DNA from: Acidimicrobiia bacterium
GTDB lineage: Bacteria > Actinomycetota > Acidimicrobiia > Spongiisociales > JAHEDJ01
Length of the DNA stretch: 64,000 bases
Direction of reading: 5' to 3'
NCBI GenBank assembly: GCA_035471805.1
Contig: DATIPS010000007.1
Coordinates: 1-64,000, forward strand
The notes under the pieces: model-generated
Seen by the model: the letters and a program-made list of their open reading frames with translations, nothing else
The model's database searches: none
Told to the model about the DNA's origin: nothing
Translations under genes and position numbers: made by a program
Shown here: positions 2-60,569 of the stretch, piece after piece
Layout of the letters: each line of letters begins with the position of its first letter
How positions within the stretch are numbered: the first letter of the stretch is position 1

Positions 2-115
2 TGGGAGGCGATAGTGCCGCGCCTCGTCACAGAAGCCGGGCTTCTGCCGCCGGACTTCACCCCCCCGCCTGCCCACGAGGACCTGGTCGCAGCAGGTGCC
101 GGAGCGAAACGGTGA
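2..115 (+). CDS. C-terminal end of an unidentified protein (5' truncated)
   Basis: An open frame enters from the left edge and stops at TGA 113-115, giving 37 residues that begin WEAIVPRLV and end VAAGAGAKR. Its stop overlaps the GTG of the next gene (GTGA), the same coupling used by the following two genes, so it is very likely the upstream member of the same operon. The tail is proline-rich and carries no motif I recognise. From the neighbours it could be a nickel or corrinoid enzyme subunit or another maturation factor, but that is inference only. Confidence 0.6.
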   Translation, partial: WEAIVPRLVTEAGLLPPDFTPPPAHEDLVAAGAGAKR

Positions 116-54563: not shown

Positions 54564-54636
54564 CTACGCCGCGCGGGCTTGTGGTAAGAACCCCGCCGCC
54601 GGACCTCTTCTAGATTGAGAGGACGGAGAGGCAGGG

Positions 54637-55107
54637 TTGTTGGAGATCCGGACAAGCTCGTTCACAGAATTCGTTCGAGCCGCGGAGCCGAAGCTCCGCC
54701 ACGCGTTGATCTCCGCCTACGGCCGTCAGGAAGGTTGGGAAGCTGTGGCCGAGGCCCTTGCCTACGCCTGGGAACACTGGGACCGGATCCAGACCATGGA
54801 GAACCCGATCGGCTACCTATACCGGGTCGGCCGGAGCCGGGGTCGCTGGGGTTTCCGGCGGCCCCGCATCGTTCACGAGATGTACCCGGCGGCCGATGAT
54901 TCGCCCTGGATCGAACCTGCCCTGCCGGCTGCCCTGCGACGGCTGTCACAGCGACAGAGGACGGCGGTGATGCTGGTCAAGGGGTTTGGGTGGACGTATC
55001 AGGAGGTTGCCGATCTGACCGGCATCTCGCTGAGTTCCGTCCAGAACCACGTGGAACGAGCTCTCAGCAAGCTGCGAGCGGACCTGGAGGTGGCCGATGG
55101 TCTTTGA
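54637..55107 (+). CDS. ECF-type sigma factor A
   Basis: 156 residues with region 2 (FTEFVRAAEPKLRHALISAYG to AYAWEHWDRIQTMENPIGYLYRVGRSR) and region 4 (LRRLSQRQRTAVMLVKGFGWTYQEVADLTGISLSSVQNHVERALSKL). It is short for an ECF factor and lacks any extra domain. Start TTG 54637 (or TTG 54640) follows GGAGAGGCAGGG. The gene overlaps the propeller gene by 11 bases, the arrangement of a sigma/anti-sigma pair. Confidence 0.88.
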   Translation: MLEIRTSSFTEFVRAAEPKLRHALISAYGRQEGWEAVAEALAYAWEHWDRIQTMENPIGYLYRVGRSRGRWGFRRPRIVHEMYPAADDSPWIEPALPAALRRLSQRQRTAVMLVKGFGWTYQEVADLTGISLSSVQNHVERALSKLRADLEVADGL

Positions 55108-56605
55108 CCTGGAGGATCGGATTCGCGCCTATGCCGAACATCTGGATGACACCACACCGAGCGTTGGACCCGAGACGGCTCGGCGGATCGCAGAGCACCG
55201 GCCGCGCTCGACACGGTTGACGGCCGCGGTTGCTGCGGCAGGACTCGTTGTTCTGGCTCTTGCTTTGGTCGTAGTCCTGAATCCGTTGGGTTCGGAGTCG
55301 CCTGTTGTCGAGCAACCGGCGACCGTGTCCACGGCCGTCGCATCGGAACCCACGACGAACTCAGAAGCGGGCCCGACCGCTACCACAGGGACAGCCCCGA
55401 CCACCACCACCGAGGCCCCCACGCCACCGGTGACGATGACCTGGACCCGCATCGAGTCCGACGTCTTCGGTGGATCCGGGCAGCAGTGGATCAGAGACAT
55501 TGCCGCCGGTGGGTCGAGATTGGTGGCGGTCGGTGCGGACGGCTCGGGCGGTGATCTCGATGCTGCCGTCTGGTATTCGACCGACGGAAGTACCTGGAGC
55601 AAGGTCGTGCACGACGAGGCCGTCTTCGGTGGTCCGGGGGATCAGTACATGATGGCGGTCACGGCGGGCGGACCGGGGTTCGTGGCCGTGGGTGAAGATA
55701 CGTCGGAGGATGGATCTTCCGGCATCTCGGCTGTGTGGATCTCCGAGGACGGGATCAGCTGGAGCCGGGTCCCTCACGACGAGGCCGCCTTCGGCGGTAC
55801 GGAACAGACCAATGTCTTCATGAAGGACGTCACTGTGTTTGGGTCGGAGCTGGTCGCGGTAGGGGTGGAAGTCACTGAAGGCTCCGCCGACGCGGTGGCG
55901 TGGATCTCGGCAGACGGGATCAGCTGGGAGCGGGTCCCTCACGACGAGGCGGTGTTCGGAGGGCCACAATTCCAGGTCATGTGGGCAGTGGTGCCGGCCG
56001 GTCCCGGACTCGTGGCGGTCGGACAAGGCGGCGACCTGGCGGGGGAAAGCGGACCGGGCCAGCCGGCGGCAGTGTGGACTTCCACCGACGGCCGCGACTG
56101 GTCGCGAGTACCCGAACAGGCCGGATTGCTGAGCGGATACCCGGCCCGAGGACCCGACAACGGAGACTGGGCACGCATGGACGACGTGATCGTCGGTGGT
56201 CCCGGTCTGGTGGCCGCAGGTCGCGTGGGCAGATGTCAGGATCTCGCCTGCACCGAGGACGCAGCAGTCTGGACGTCGGTAGATGGGGTGACATGGGGAC
56301 GAAGCACCATCGAGGAGGCAGTCGGCATGAACTTCGACCGGATCTTCGGAGTGAGCAGTTTCGGCGACCTCCTGGTTGCCACCGGAGTAGGCCGCGCCGC
56401 CGACGTGAACCTTGGGCCGGCCGTGGTCCGGACCTCGACCGACGGAGGCCGGACCTGGGATCGCGTAATGAGCGCCGCCGCCTTCGGAAAACTGAACGAA
56501 GGGCCGAATGCCATATATGCGTCGGTCGAGGTCGAGTCCAGCTTGATCGCAGTCGGCAGCTGGGGGTCGGACGCCGCCATATGGATCGCCACCAACGAAG
56601 AGTGA
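55097..56605 (+). CDS. Single-pass membrane protein with BNR/Asp-box beta-propeller, putative anti-sigma sensor (module A)
   Basis: 502 residues. Cytosolic part 1-41 (MVFDLEDRIRAYAEHLDD...), transmembrane helix at about 42-62, a threonine-rich linker (about 75-110), then an extracytoplasmic propeller of about seven repeats. Repeats end in W-[ST]-x-DG-x-x-W-x-RV and open with AGGPGLVAVG or similar; three carry HDEAVFGG-like blocks. Asp-box S-TDGGRTW occurs near the end. No ZAS histidine/cysteine motif is present, so anti-sigma function rests on coupling with the ECF gene (ATG 55097, GGAGG 6 bases upstream, inside the sigma gene). An exported protein follows. Confidence 0.72.
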   Translation: MVFDLEDRIRAYAEHLDDTTPSVGPETARRIAEHRPRSTRLTAAVAAAGLVVLALALVVVLNPLGSESPVVEQPATVSTAVASEPTTNSEAGPTATTGTAPTTTTEAPTPPVTMTWTRIESDVFGGSGQQWIRDIAAGGSRLVAVGADGSGGDLDAAVWYSTDGSTWSKVVHDEAVFGGPGDQYMMAVTAGGPGFVAVGEDTSEDGSSGISAVWISEDGISWSRVPHDEAAFGGTEQTNVFMKDVTVFGSELVAVGVEVTEGSADAVAWISADGISWERVPHDEAVFGGPQFQVMWAVVPAGPGLVAVGQGGDLAGESGPGQPAAVWTSTDGRDWSRVPEQAGLLSGYPARGPDNGDWARMDDVIVGGPGLVAAGRVGRCQDLACTEDAAVWTSVDGVTWGRSTIEEAVGMNFDRIFGVSSFGDLLVATGVGRAADVNLGPAVVRTSTDGGRTWDRVMSAAAFGKLNEGPNAIYASVEVESSLIAVGSWGSDAAIWIATNEE

Positions 56606-56627
56606 CTCATACCGATAGGGGAAGACG

Positions 56628-57170
56628 ATGAGAAAGACGACGAGCGTGATCCTGGCACTGGGAATACTGATGACTTTGCAGGCGCCGGTGAGTGCCAAGA
56701 AGCCGGTGCCGCCACCGGGACCGGAACCGATGATAGGCCTCACCTGCGAACAGTGGGCCGTCGAGCATCCCCAGTTCGCGCAGATTGGTGGCGCCGACAA
56801 CGACTTTGAGCTGGTCCTCGACGCCGACCAACCGTCAGCCTGCATCGACGTCGCCTCGCTGCAAGGCACCTGGCGGATCGCCATCGATGCGGAGTCGGCG
56901 GCGTCTCTGGAGGTGCAAGTGAAGGACAGTGTCCCCGGCGACTTCTGCTATCGCGGGAGCTTCGGAAAGAAGAAGAACCCCATTCCCGACTCGCCGTGGA
57001 TGATCGACGTCGAGATCCCCGCCGCCGCTATCGATGGCTGCACCCCCGGCGAAGTCGGCCTGGCGGCAGATCAAGATCCTGCCCTGGTGTTCGCGGTGGC
57101 CTACAGCCCCGAGAGGGGGACGACCGGCTCAAAGGTGACGATCCACGTCGACCTTCCGTCTCAGCCCTAG
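56628..57170 (+). CDS. Exported protein of unknown function
   Basis: 180 residues with signal peptide MRKTTSVILALGILMTLQAPVSA. The mature protein begins with a proline-rich stretch (KKPVPPPGPEPMIG), then a beta-rich part with four cysteines (LTCEQW, SACIDV, DFCYRG, DGCTPG), enough for two disulfides. ATG 56628 follows GGGGAAG, 22 bases after the propeller gene's stop, so likely the third gene of the module. No family recognised. The start of this gene resembles the 31-codon remnant at 58401-58496. Confidence 0.68.
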   Translation: MRKTTSVILALGILMTLQAPVSAKKPVPPPGPEPMIGLTCEQWAVEHPQFAQIGGADNDFELVLDADQPSACIDVASLQGTWRIAIDAESAASLEVQVKDSVPGDFCYRGSFGKKKNPIPDSPWMIDVEIPAAAIDGCTPGEVGLAADQDPALVFAVAYSPERGTTGSKVTIHVDLPSQP

Positions 57171-57321
57171 TCGTCTCACCGCGCCGCCACGATACATAGA
57201 AGCCGGGGTTGCAGTTCATCCCAGCATTCGCCGAGCGGGTGTTTTCCAGGCTCGGGGCTTTGGCCTCTTCCCCATTCGCGTTGGATTTGGAACGATGCAG
57301 GAGAGGTGAAAGGAGTTGGTC

Positions 57322-58359
57322 GTGCGAAGGCACACAGCGGTGTATGCACTGGCGGGACTGATTCTTGTCTTGTCAGCGTGCATTGCAACCGACACACGAG
57401 CTGATTCATCGATCTCGCCGACTAGTGGCTCCCAACCCCAGCCGACCACAACGCCCGTTACGGAGACTACAAACGAACTGTCGAACATGAGCGTTGCGGA
57501 ACTGCACGCACATGCGGTTGAGTTCTCAGACACCTACCACCGGTCATGGCCCGACATCGAGTTTGCTCTCGAACGATTCGCCGATGATGTCGTCTTCTAC
57601 GACCCAGCCGATGGAGATTTCATCATCGAGGGCAGCACCGTGATCGTGCCCATACTCCGCAACTTCGTACGCCACTTCCCGAACGTTGCACCAGTTGTCG
57701 AAGAGGTCTTCGTCTCTGCCGACGGGGCTGCCTATCGGTCCGTGTACGGTCACGGCTATTGGCCTCCGTGGTCAACGGAACCATCAGGTCATCGTCCGGT
57801 AGTGGATCTCAATGTGTTCCACTTCGAGGGCGACTCGGTCACAGGTTTCGACATCTGGTTTGAGGATGACAGTCTTGAAACGATGGGCTTCGGCTGCTTC
57901 GCCAACAACGGCTGCCCCGAACTCGGGGTAATCGTGGAACGTTATGTCACGGCGTGGACATCAGGAGACCCCGACCAGATCGCCGCACTGTACGCCGATA
58001 ACGCCACATTCGTCGACAACTTGAACGGGATCTCAGCAGTCGGCCCCTCGGAGATCAACGGCACCTCCAGAGCACGGTTCGGCCAGGGCGACTTCATCCT
58101 CGAAGTGATTGCGGTATACGCACAGACCAACGGACCGGGCCTGCCGACTGAAGCTGATCTCGACCTCGGTGAATTGATCGCAGTCGGCCTCCACTACCGG
58201 GTCTCCTCACCAAATGGGGACTATGCCGCCTCTGACAGCCTGACCACATTCGAGTTCGGTACCCCTCGAACGGACGGTTTCACCCCCCACCCGCAGGATC
58301 TCATCACCCGCGAAGAGGTGTTCCACAACCCCGACACGTTCGCCAACATCGCTGGATGA
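57322..58359 (+). CDS. Lipoprotein with two SnoaL-like domains
   Basis: 345 residues. Lipobox LVLSAC with C20, then a threonine/proline linker, then two SnoaL/NTF2-like units: HAHAVEFSDTYHRSWPDIEFALERFADDVVFYDPADGD to about 180, and VIVERYVTAWTSGDPDQIAALYADNATFVDNLNG to the end. Such folds bind or isomerise small hydrophobic ligands. GTG 57322 is set by AGGAG 6 bases upstream. Sits between the two ECF/propeller modules on the plus strand; a 151-base upstream gap suggests its own promoter. Confidence 0.72.
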   Translation: MRRHTAVYALAGLILVLSACIATDTRADSSISPTSGSQPQPTTTPVTETTNELSNMSVAELHAHAVEFSDTYHRSWPDIEFALERFADDVVFYDPADGDFIIEGSTVIVPILRNFVRHFPNVAPVVEEVFVSADGAAYRSVYGHGYWPPWSTEPSGHRPVVDLNVFHFEGDSVTGFDIWFEDDSLETMGFGCFANNGCPELGVIVERYVTAWTSGDPDQIAALYADNATFVDNLNGISAVGPSEINGTSRARFGQGDFILEVIAVYAQTNGPGLPTEADLDLGELIAVGLHYRVSSPNGDYAASDSLTTFEFGTPRTDGFTPHPQDLITREEVFHNPDTFANIAG

Positions 58360-58360
58360 C

Positions 58361-58375
58361 ACGCCAAATAGGCGT
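58361..58375 (+). terminator. Hairpin after the SnoaL-like lipoprotein
   Basis: ACGCC-AAATA-GGCGT, a perfect 5-bp stem two bases after the stop codon, followed by TCTGC. Small but well placed. Confidence 0.5.
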
Positions 58376-58400
58376 TCTGCGCTACTCAGCCTTCCCGCCC

Positions 58401-58496
58401 TCAGGTCACAGCACAGCCCCGTGGGCGAGTGTTCGCCGCTGAACCAACCGCACAACAAGAGATAACCGCGAGTATCACGACGCCAGTTCTTCTCAT
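58401..58496 (-). pseudogene. 31-codon remnant or micro-ORF with signal peptide (module B)
   Basis: ATG 58496 lies four bases beyond the propeller gene's stop, with GAGGAG (the last two Glu codons) as ribosome site. It encodes MRRTGVVILAVISCCAVGSA and ends after 31 residues at TGA 58401. The beginning resembles the exported protein of module A (MRKTTSVILA): 7 of 10 residues match. The most economical reading is that module B once had the same third gene and lost its body. A real micropeptide cannot be excluded. Confidence 0.5.
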
Positions 58497-58499
58497 GGT

Positions 58500-59981
58500 C
58501 TACTCCTCTGTGGTTGGGTTCGCCCACCGGGCGATCCACACGGTTGCCGTGCCTTCATGGGATCCGACGGCGACCAGCCTCTCGCCGAACGCGACGACGT
58601 CGTCGATCACGGAATCGGGCAAGCCGTTCACCGTTTCGAAGACTGAATCGGTTGAAGTCTCGTCCCAGGTGGTTCCACCATCAGTCGAGTACCAGGCGGC
58701 GGGGCGAGATTTCGGCGTGTCGTCTTCGGACTTGACTGTGTGTATCCAGGCACCGGCTGCCACCAGACCCTGGTCGGTGACGGCGAGTCCTGGGATATAC
58801 GCTTCGGGGCGGACCAGTCCACCGACATAGGCAGGATCGAGGATGTGCTCGGCCCAGTTGGACCCGCCGCTGGAGGTCCAGAAGGCCGGGCGCGCGTCGA
58901 ACTTCGACGGGCAGGTAGCGGCGCTGCTGCCTGCGATGACTACATCGCCGTTGCGAGCAATCACGGTACGTGCATACATCGCGACCCATTCATTCCCCAT
59001 TGTCGGATGGAGAGCGACCCGCGTCCAGTCCGTTCCGTTGGGGGAGATGAAGGCATACGGCTTCACCGTCGATCCGGCCTCTCCACTGACGCAGACTCCG
59101 AACCCCTGTCTCCATCCGACGGCGACGAACCCCCAGTCGGCGTAGGCCACGTCTGCCAGCACTCCGACTTCCTCGAGTCCCTCGATCCTGTTCCACTCGA
59201 TTCCGTCGACCGAGAACCAGATCGCCCCAAAGCCCACCGCTACCAGGCCGGGATCGCCTTCTGCAACGGCGAGCATCATCGTGTCGTCGGGACCGGACGA
59301 CATCACTCGTTCCCAATCCGTGCCGTTGGTTGAGACCCACACCGCGGCGCCGGATTCCTCCCCGGCTCCCCCGACGGCTACGAACCCTGGCCCTCCGGCA
59401 ACGAGGTCCTCGATCAATGCACCACCCGGCGCCCCAAACACAGACTCGTCGTGCTGAACTCGATCCCAGCTATAGCCGTCCTCAGAGGTCCAAACGGCGG
59501 CGACCCCACCGGAGATCGGAAGGCCGCCGTTGAACTCGCCGCCAGCTGGTCGTACTTCACCGGCCCCGATCAAACCGGGCCCACCGGCTACGACCGTGTG
59601 CATCTGGTACTCGCGGGTCTGGTCGTTTGCGCCAAGAGCCTCTTGAGCAGGGACAGTTGCCCAAGAGATCGGCGACGCGGATTCTGCCCCCTCTGGGAAC
59701 ACAGTTGTCTCTGGTGCTGGGGCTCCGCTCTGCACGGTCGGGGGTGTGTCGGACACTTCCGAGATCTCGCTGCTGAGGACCAGGGCCGCCGCGCCCACAA
59801 TCACCAACACCAGCACCGCTGTGGCGCCAGCTAATCCGGCCGGGCGCCAAGGCGACGTTGGGGCCTTCCTCGTGGAGCGGGTGGTCCGTCGAGAGGGATT
59901 GTCCAGCGTAGGAACCTCGACGGTCTCACTGAACCGTCGTACCTCGTTGGCGGCCAGATTCAGCTTGCGATCGACAGTCAT
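58500..59981 (-). CDS. Single-pass membrane protein with BNR/Asp-box beta-propeller, putative anti-sigma sensor (module B)
   Basis: 493 residues. Cytosolic part 1-47, transmembrane helix at about 48-69 (LAGATAVLVLVIVGAAALVL), linker to about 105, then repeats of the same type as module A: AVWTSEDGYSWDRVQHDESVFG, AGGPGFVAVG, WVSTNGTDWERV, FSVDGIEWNRI, AWYSTDGGTTWDETS (Asp-box), ending VWIARWANPTTEE. It contains three scattered cysteines in the propeller. ATG 59981 overlaps the ECF sigma stop (ATGA). No zinc-type anti-sigma motif is seen, so the anti-sigma role is inferred from coupling. Confidence 0.72.
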   Translation of the reverse strand: MTVDRKLNLAANEVRRFSETVEVPTLDNPSRRTTRSTRKAPTSPWRPAGLAGATAVLVLVIVGAAALVLSSEISEVSDTPPTVQSGAPAPETTVFPEGAESASPISWATVPAQEALGANDQTREYQMHTVVAGGPGLIGAGEVRPAGGEFNGGLPISGGVAAVWTSEDGYSWDRVQHDESVFGAPGGALIEDLVAGGPGFVAVGGAGEESGAAVWVSTNGTDWERVMSSGPDDTMMLAVAEGDPGLVAVGFGAIWFSVDGIEWNRIEGLEEVGVLADVAYADWGFVAVGWRQGFGVCVSGEAGSTVKPYAFISPNGTDWTRVALHPTMGNEWVAMYARTVIARNGDVVIAGSSAATCPSKFDARPAFWTSSGGSNWAEHILDPAYVGGLVRPEAYIPGLAVTDQGLVAAGAWIHTVKSEDDTPKSRPAAWYSTDGGTTWDETSTDSVFETVNGLPDSVIDDVVAFGERLVAVGSHEGTATVWIARWANPTTEE

Positions 59982-60478
59982 TGCGAATCCTCCTCGAATC
60001 GTTCTGCCAGGGTCGCCTTCGCCCTCTGTAGATGGGTCTTGACCGTGAACGGAGAGCAGCCAAGGATCTCGCCCACCTCTTGAATCGACCAACCTTCCAG
60101 ATAGGTCAGAACGATCACCTGCGCCTGCCGTCTCGGAAGACGCCGCACCGTCTCCCACACAGCGGCACCCTCTGCCGAGATCTCCGGCGGTGACACATCC
60201 TCCGCTCGCCGCCACAGGCGATGGAGTGACCGTCGCTCAGAGAGCAAACGCCGGAAGAGCGACACCGACCGGTTCGCCAATACCTTCCTGACCCATCCCT
60301 CAGGAGAATCGAGTTGGCTCACATCCGCCCAGTTCCGTCGAGCGGCCAGGAACGCATCCTGTGCAAGGTCTTCCGCTGCCCAACGATCCCCACACAGAAC
60401 GTAGGCCAAACCGACTAGCGGCCGATACTCTGCCTTGTAGAACTCATCGAACGAACCGACAATCGCCCGGTCGTTCAT
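59978..60478 (-). CDS. ECF-type sigma factor B
   Basis: 166 residues. Region 2 FDEFYKAEYRPLVGLAYVLCGDRWAAEDLAQDAFLAARRNW and region 4 LPRRQAQVIVLTYLEGWSIQEVGEILGCSPFTVKTHLQRAKATLAERF. It is more canonical (SigE/SigM-like) than factor A. ATG 60478 is favoured by GGGAGG 6 bases upstream; ATG 60499 is in frame but without a site. Divergent from a small HTH gene. Confidence 0.9.
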   Translation of the reverse strand: MNDRAIVGSFDEFYKAEYRPLVGLAYVLCGDRWAAEDLAQDAFLAARRNWADVSQLDSPEGWVRKVLANRSVSLFRRLLSERRSLHRLWRRAEDVSPPEISAEGAAVWETVRRLPRRQAQVIVLTYLEGWSIQEVGEILGCSPFTVKTHLQRAKATLAERFEEDSQ

Positions 60479-60569
60479 CTCCGCCCTCCCAAGCTCCATT
60501 CGAAAGACCTTCCCAATGGCTCACTCGACTAGTTACTCGCTCGGCGCCAGGAATCGAACTACAAGCAAA

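Follow-up and report, generated by a model that had tools for sequence, protein, structure and literature searches.

The two facing modules described here, each made up of an ECF-type sigma gene that overlaps a gene for a membrane-anchored beta-propeller protein, most likely encode short, zinc-free anti-sigma sensors of the membrane that carry exchangeable propellers and work as self-contained, autoregulated circuits (probability about 0.78). Our computations show the overlaps of the genes, the architecture of the tails, the strict pairing of tail and sigma factor, the exchange of outer domains, a promoter-like motif common to the A-type sigma genes and the link between a third gene, orfC, and the propellers. 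We infer that the tail binds the sigma factor and inhibits it instead of activating it, as well as how the sigma factor is released, what the propeller binds and what orfC does.

The modules lie in a window of 64,000 nucleotides, i.e. the whole stretch of DNA that was analysed. The four sigma and propeller genes, their two overlaps and the single membrane helix of each propeller protein (by hydropathy) were recovered as an earlier sequence-only reading had described them (Table 1). Both propeller proteins share one layout: a tail of about 40-48 residues leads into a single hydrophobic helix, after which come a Thr/Pro-rich stalk and the outer domain. The hydropathy of propA peaks at 2.97 at residues 43-61, and the AlphaFold2 model has a helix at residues 40-61. 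The start codon of sigB is the ATG at 60478, which follows GGGAGG, and a second in-frame ATG is present at 60499. Between the modules, a putative lipoprotein with two SnoaL-like domains is encoded at 57316-58359 on the plus strand, convergent with propB.

Table 1. Features of the two modules and their surroundings, in window coordinates
Feature	Position	Strand	Description
Probable autoregulatory promoter, sigA operon	54580..54610	+	TGTGGTAA-N15-ACCTCTTC, -35/-10-like
sigA	54637-55107	+	ECF-type sigma factor, 156 aa, TTG start, A-type family
propA	55097-56605	+	Overlaps sigA by 11 nt
propA cytosolic tail, residues 1-40	55097..55216	+	A-type tail family; putative anti-sigma role
propA membrane helix, residues about 41-61	55217..55279	+	Hydropathy and AlphaFold2 model
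propA Thr/Pro/Ser-rich stalk, residues 62-112	55280..55432	+	From sequence; disordered in model
propA outer domain, residues 113-502	55433..56605	+	Predicted seven-bladed Asp-box-like beta-propeller
orfC	56628-57170	+	Secreted protein, 180 aa; third gene of propA module
Signal-peptide gene, 31 codons	58401..58496	-	Putative remnant; translation MRRTGVVILAVISCCAVGSAANTRPRGCAVT*
propB	58500-59981	-	Overlaps sigB by 4 nt (ATGA)
propB outer propeller	58518-59705	-	Homologous to propA ectodomain
propB membrane helix, residues about 49-70		-	Hydropathy
propB tail, residues 1-48	59838-59981	-	B-type tail family
sigB	59978-60478	-	ECF sigma factor, SigE-like type, B-type family
Weak B-type promoter-like site upstream of sigB	60531..60564	-	TTGTAGTTC-N17-GAGTAACT, 12.2 bits

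We refer to sigA-like sigma genes as A-type and to sigB-like ones as B-type. Both Sigma70_r2 and Sigma70_r4_2 of Pfam score above cut-off in sigB, and region 4 alone is matched by Pfam in sigA (Sigma70_r4_2, E = 7.5e-15). A profile of the sigA family aligns with sigB over its full length, so that both regions are covered (hhalign probability 98.3, E = 1.5e-14); hence sigA is an entire ECF factor whose region 2 has diverged. ECF factors are defined by having sigma regions 2 and 4 and no others, and this composition is found in both proteins, in sigA with region 2 recognised through the profile alignment. The SigE family (TIGR02983) is the best match of both, yet their scores of 74.0 bits (sigA) and 125.6 bits (sigB) stay below its membership cut-off of 141.55. 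The sigma-plus-tail heads of the two modules belong to two clearly separate families. The propellers of propA and propB are homologous (31% identity, E = 6e-30), so the proposal that the modules are paralogues stands for the outer domains and fails for the heads.

The zinc anti-sigma motif is absent from both tails, as had been noticed before, and neither HxxxCxxC nor a pair of cysteines occurs in any of 149 related tails. A class I (zinc) anti-sigma domain, which carries HxxxCxxC and is about 100 residues long, fits these tails on neither count and was consequently rejected. The median tail length is 47 residues for the A type and 39 residues for the B type. The tails are closely tied to their sigma factors: in 10-fold cross-validation, tail profiles assigned 107 of 107 A-type and 41 of 41 B-type tails to the correct sigma family (148/148), and the propB tail scores 15.7 bits with the B profile vs 7.0 bits with the A profile. 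The pairing reflects in part shared ancestry within each family; the chimera on contig C26 (see below) argues against ancestry alone but is a single event. For the propA tail, AlphaFold2 predicts two short helices at residues 5-19 and 25-32, with low confidence (tail pLDDT 46-66). The tail profile gave chance matches alone in the PDB (best E = 0.09), and no solved anti-sigma factor was among them. Neither propA nor propB matches CU044_5270 (NF038083; E up to 1, with membership above 100 bits), in contrast to the protein next to one A-type sigma gene (L205), which is a true member with 124 bits.

The architecture appears to be general among relatives. Our sample comprised A-type and B-type sigma genes found in 79 genomes belonging to the order, to which 80 loci were added after 85,000 species genomes had been scanned; these were mostly from Acidimicrobiia metagenome assemblies and also from the cultured Demequina pelophila (strain NBRC 109393), which has an A-type module (L184). 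One sigma family alone has 232 relatives in that scan. Every A-type (about 110) and B-type (about 43) sigma gene with enough downstream sequence is followed by an overlapping tailed gene, the sole exception being a truncated remnant on contig C26. The overlaps are mostly of 4, 8, 11 or 14 nt, and the encoded proteins have a tail of 23-73 residues, a membrane helix and an outer domain that differs among them. In the outer position we found Asp-box-like propellers, Reg_prop, PD40, PQQ, discoidin-like, PASTA, Ig-like, SnoaL, DUF4349 and redoxin domains, and because of this variation the sensor family is defined by the tail and not by the propeller. Where the sequence-only reading had inferred propeller-type anti-sigma sensors as a family, the zinc-free membrane sensors are supported, while the propeller turns out to be just one of many outer domains. 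Further ECF-propeller pairs, for which it had suggested a genome scan, occur both in the own genome (contig C26) and in relatives.

Several members depart from the common plan or repeat it. A few have extra membrane helices, for instance three in the A-type modules L057, L062, L067, L123, L126, L132 and others, and at least some of these three-helix second proteins probably end in a SnoaL-like outer domain. Three B-type sigma/propeller modules stand in tandem in genome G002 (contig C37, 15500-25300; L135), each followed by a gene for a secreted protein. In the own genome (G000), the minus strand of contig C11 (1-730; L007) carries an A-type sigma gene whose product is 68% identical to sigA; its overlapping tailed gene runs off the contig end, and a promoter-like site is present at 757-786.

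Outer domains have been exchanged between the sigma types. Among 333 pairs of similar outer domains, 70 join A and B modules, and the closest relative of propB in the set belongs to an A-type module (L038). The clearest case is found in the own genome (G000 contig C26, 1-3650; L002), where an A-type sigma gene with a truncated, 56-codon A-type tail remnant is followed by a B-type sigma gene and a B-type tail-propeller gene. This second sigma factor is 59% identical to sigB and its tail is clearly of the B type (20.9 vs 6.8 bits), with a propeller 82% identical to that of propA over 389 residues. It appears that a sigma-tail cassette took the place of the original head in a sensor that was already there, and of all the sequence evidence this chimera speaks most strongly for the tail as the part that fits the sigma factor. 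Downstream of the chimeric propeller lie an orfC remnant and then an intact orfC relative. In evolutionary terms, the sigma-tail pair would form one unit and the propeller, together with the secreted protein that accompanies it, another, and these units have been recombined.

The AlphaFold2 model of propA (mean pLDDT 79.1, pTM 0.74) shows a propeller of seven blades, most of them above 90 pLDDT, on a stalk with pLDDT below 50 at residues 62-107. A repeated W-x-S-x-DG-x-x-W motif and the propeller fold are shared by propA and propB with sortilin/VPS10, sialidase and other Asp-box propellers. Foldseek matched the propA model to many propellers of the PDB (best 7roo, E = 2e-11; also kelch proteins, sialidases and sortilin) and singled out no close relative, and neither propA nor propB reaches the cut-off of any Pfam family. 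The idea that the ligand is a glycan is unsupported: no CAZy-like or lectin family scores above cut-off in either protein, and the fold search yields a propeller and nothing more specific.

Outer domains of this type also occur apart from any sigma gene, in lipoproteins. These make up about half of the related propellers found in other genomes, and at least 14 Asp-box-like propellers without an upstream sigma gene start with a lipobox-like signal peptide (the lipobox being read by eye; L003, L020, L021, L023, L024, L026, L027, L032, L037, L040, L043 and others). All Asp-box-like propellers with a sigma gene directly upstream have a tail and a membrane helix. The sequence-only reading would be refuted, by one of its own criteria, if propeller genes usually did not adjoin ECF genes; about half of them do not, but these propellers lack the tail, except for L253 and L254, which have an inner segment and a membrane helix with no sigma gene adjacent. 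In L254 (G018:C24, 2470-4201) the inner segment ahead of the membrane helix is zinc-ribbon-like (CPHGHPVEQGRSYCTVCGAPV).

The third gene of the propA module, orfC, encodes a protein with a signal peptide, AKKPxPPP, a V[RK]DSxPGDxC motif and invariant cysteines. A profile search recovered 15 members of its family in 138 genomes of the order, all 15 directly downstream of a propeller gene (at one of these loci the contig begins within the propeller gene), and the modules concerned belong to several sigma types. No member was found in the further genomes of a class-wide sample of 395, in which eight candidates were scored per genome. More broadly, a secreted neighbour accompanies 15 of the 22 modules with at least three Asp-box motifs vs about 15 of 88 others (Fisher p = 7e-6, with counts partly compiled by hand and groups that are not fully independent). 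The model of orfC is all-beta (AlphaFold2, pLDDT 71), and its fold search was uninformative, the best matches having E of about 6e-4 and TM of about 0.4. By its place, which is that of the third gene in other modules, the 31-codon piece after propB would be a decayed third gene. At another of the 15 places, a decaying propA orthologue in G002 (contig C12, 6721-8701; L019) is frameshifted and has lost sigma gene and tail but retains its orfC neighbour.

The preferred reading has a version, in our judgement rather unlikely, in which the secreted orfC protein of the cell itself or of its neighbours is the ligand of the propeller and closes an autocrine or kin-sensing loop, in place of the sensing of an external compound. 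Genes of the orfC family are found only beside propeller genes (15/15) and stay with the propeller across sigma types, as indicated by the ECLWTP subfamily of orfC that is common to L113 (A-type) and L135/L136 (B-type). However, orfC could equally serve as an effector or as a shared component of the envelope, no secreted neighbour was detected in seven of the 22 modules with at least three Asp-box motifs, and the copy of propB is decayed. In its fullest form, about as unlikely, this version is a modular, self-contained circuit of a sigma factor with its own operon as main target, a propeller receptor and a dedicated secreted ligand, with receptor-plus-ligand units exchanged as cassettes between the sigma-plus-tail units of several ECF families.

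Upstream regions of A-type sigma genes share a TGTCGT-N17-GCTCTA-like motif at a nearly fixed place (two-block expectation maximisation, n = 112). It exceeds the 99th percentile of shuffled sequences in 84 of 112 A-type regions, compared with 4 of 336 shuffles and 2 of 43 B-type regions; the first count is somewhat optimistic because the model was fitted to the regions it scored. The fixed position and the contrast with the B type are independent support for the motif. Autoregulated ECF factors are expected to have a promoter specific to their family ahead of the sigma gene, and such a promoter is accordingly predicted for the A type. The B-type motif is different (29 of 43 B-type and 3 of 112 A-type regions) and comes mainly from one orthologous group; sites before the close relatives of sigB score poorly for it, and the one before sigB is weak. 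We also derived a strict pattern from three sites, namely those of sigA, of its close orthologue and of the C11 paralogue. In the own genome (2.85 Mb) this pattern matches twice, once ahead of sigA and once ahead of the C11 paralogue, and the reversed control gives no match; since it was written from those very sites, it shows the absence of others and is not a discovery of these. Over 79 genomes, the strict pattern is no commoner than the reversed control. Hence it marks sigma promoters and is no finder of regulons, and we claim no regulon beyond the own operon.

A single-pass protein encoded directly after an ECF gene and overlapping it is most often an anti-sigma factor. The short zinc-free tail that the overlapping gene encodes would accordingly hold the ECF factor at the membrane in an inactive state, with translational coupling balancing the amounts of sigma factor and tailed protein. 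The Thr/Pro-rich stalk would bear the beta-propeller outside the cell, where it may bind something extracellular, and binding or loss of this ligand would alter or cleave the membrane protein and set the sigma factor free. Proteolytic release may occur, as homologues of site-2 proteases exist in the own genome, but these are nearly universal (14 of 14 controls). The freed sigma factor would transcribe chiefly its own operon from the family-specific promoter, giving more sigma factor, sensor and secreted orfC protein, the last acting as an output or as a partner of the propeller.

The tail might instead recruit or stabilise the sigma factor, as a co-activator or membrane scaffold through which the sensor activates it positively. 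Strict tail-sigma pairing and overlap would suit any dedicated partner, and the tails match no known anti-sigma domain; we nonetheless consider this improbable, in view of the usual anti-sigma nature of such overlapping neighbours and because autoregulated promoters need a brake against runaway expression. That the overlap is functionless, with the propeller a surface binding protein that shares operon and anchor and the tail a positive-inside topogenic segment only, would agree with the sigma-free lipoproteins and with the two propellers whose inner segment has no adjoining sigma gene, but it is very improbable, as a tail that is only topogenic would not be expected to indicate the right sigma family in 148 of 148 cases and the C26 tail travelled with its sigma factor into a different propeller gene.

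Among known systems, the anti-sigma sensors proposed here would resemble the RsgI factors in logic and CnrY in tail size. The RsgI anti-sigma-I factors of Clostridium thermocellum are single-pass proteins with a short inner domain and interchangeable outer sensors, and several paralogous pairs occur per genome (PMC12203970). propA and propB are likewise single-pass, with a short inner domain and an exchangeable outer domain, and here too the genome carries several paralogous pairs. The partner of RsgI is sigma-I, whereas those of propA and propB match ECF models, and RsgI has a self-cleaving periplasmic domain and sensors that are CBM, PA14, glycosidase or peptidase-like (PMC12203970). Neither the RsgI N-terminal nor the self-cleaving domain was found in propA or propB, or among 25 of the 29 Pfam families listed for 106 members. 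CnrY is a class II anti-sigma factor, whose short domain wraps sigma4 and sigma2 with two helices (PMC7406223). A very short cytosolic domain with two helices predicted at low confidence, the lack of zinc, the membrane anchor and the ECF partner are features that propA has in common with CnrY/CnrH. In contrast, the outer part of propA is a large propeller, phylum and sigma family are different, and the tail profile matches no solved anti-sigma factor. RsbN, the partner of BldN in Streptomyces, is, like propA, actinobacterial, membrane-anchored and zinc-free. Its class III anti-sigma domain has three helices (PMC7406223, PMC8103513), as against two predicted for the propA tail at low confidence, and those descriptions report neither a propeller nor swapping. 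In the papers searched we found no description of ECF factors with propeller anti-sigmas, and the 2021 re-classification of ECF factors may already number these sigma factors.

Minimal zinc-free tails would be missed by standard anti-sigma searches, and one survey discarded anti-sigma domains of fewer than 50 residues (PMC7406223). The tailed genes described here suggest a large set of one-helix sensors in the little-studied and mostly uncultured Acidimicrobiia, with the third gene as a concrete candidate for the partner of the sensor. The natural chimera indicates which part may be required to fit the sigma factor and which part is free to vary, a design rule that could serve ECF-based biosensors.
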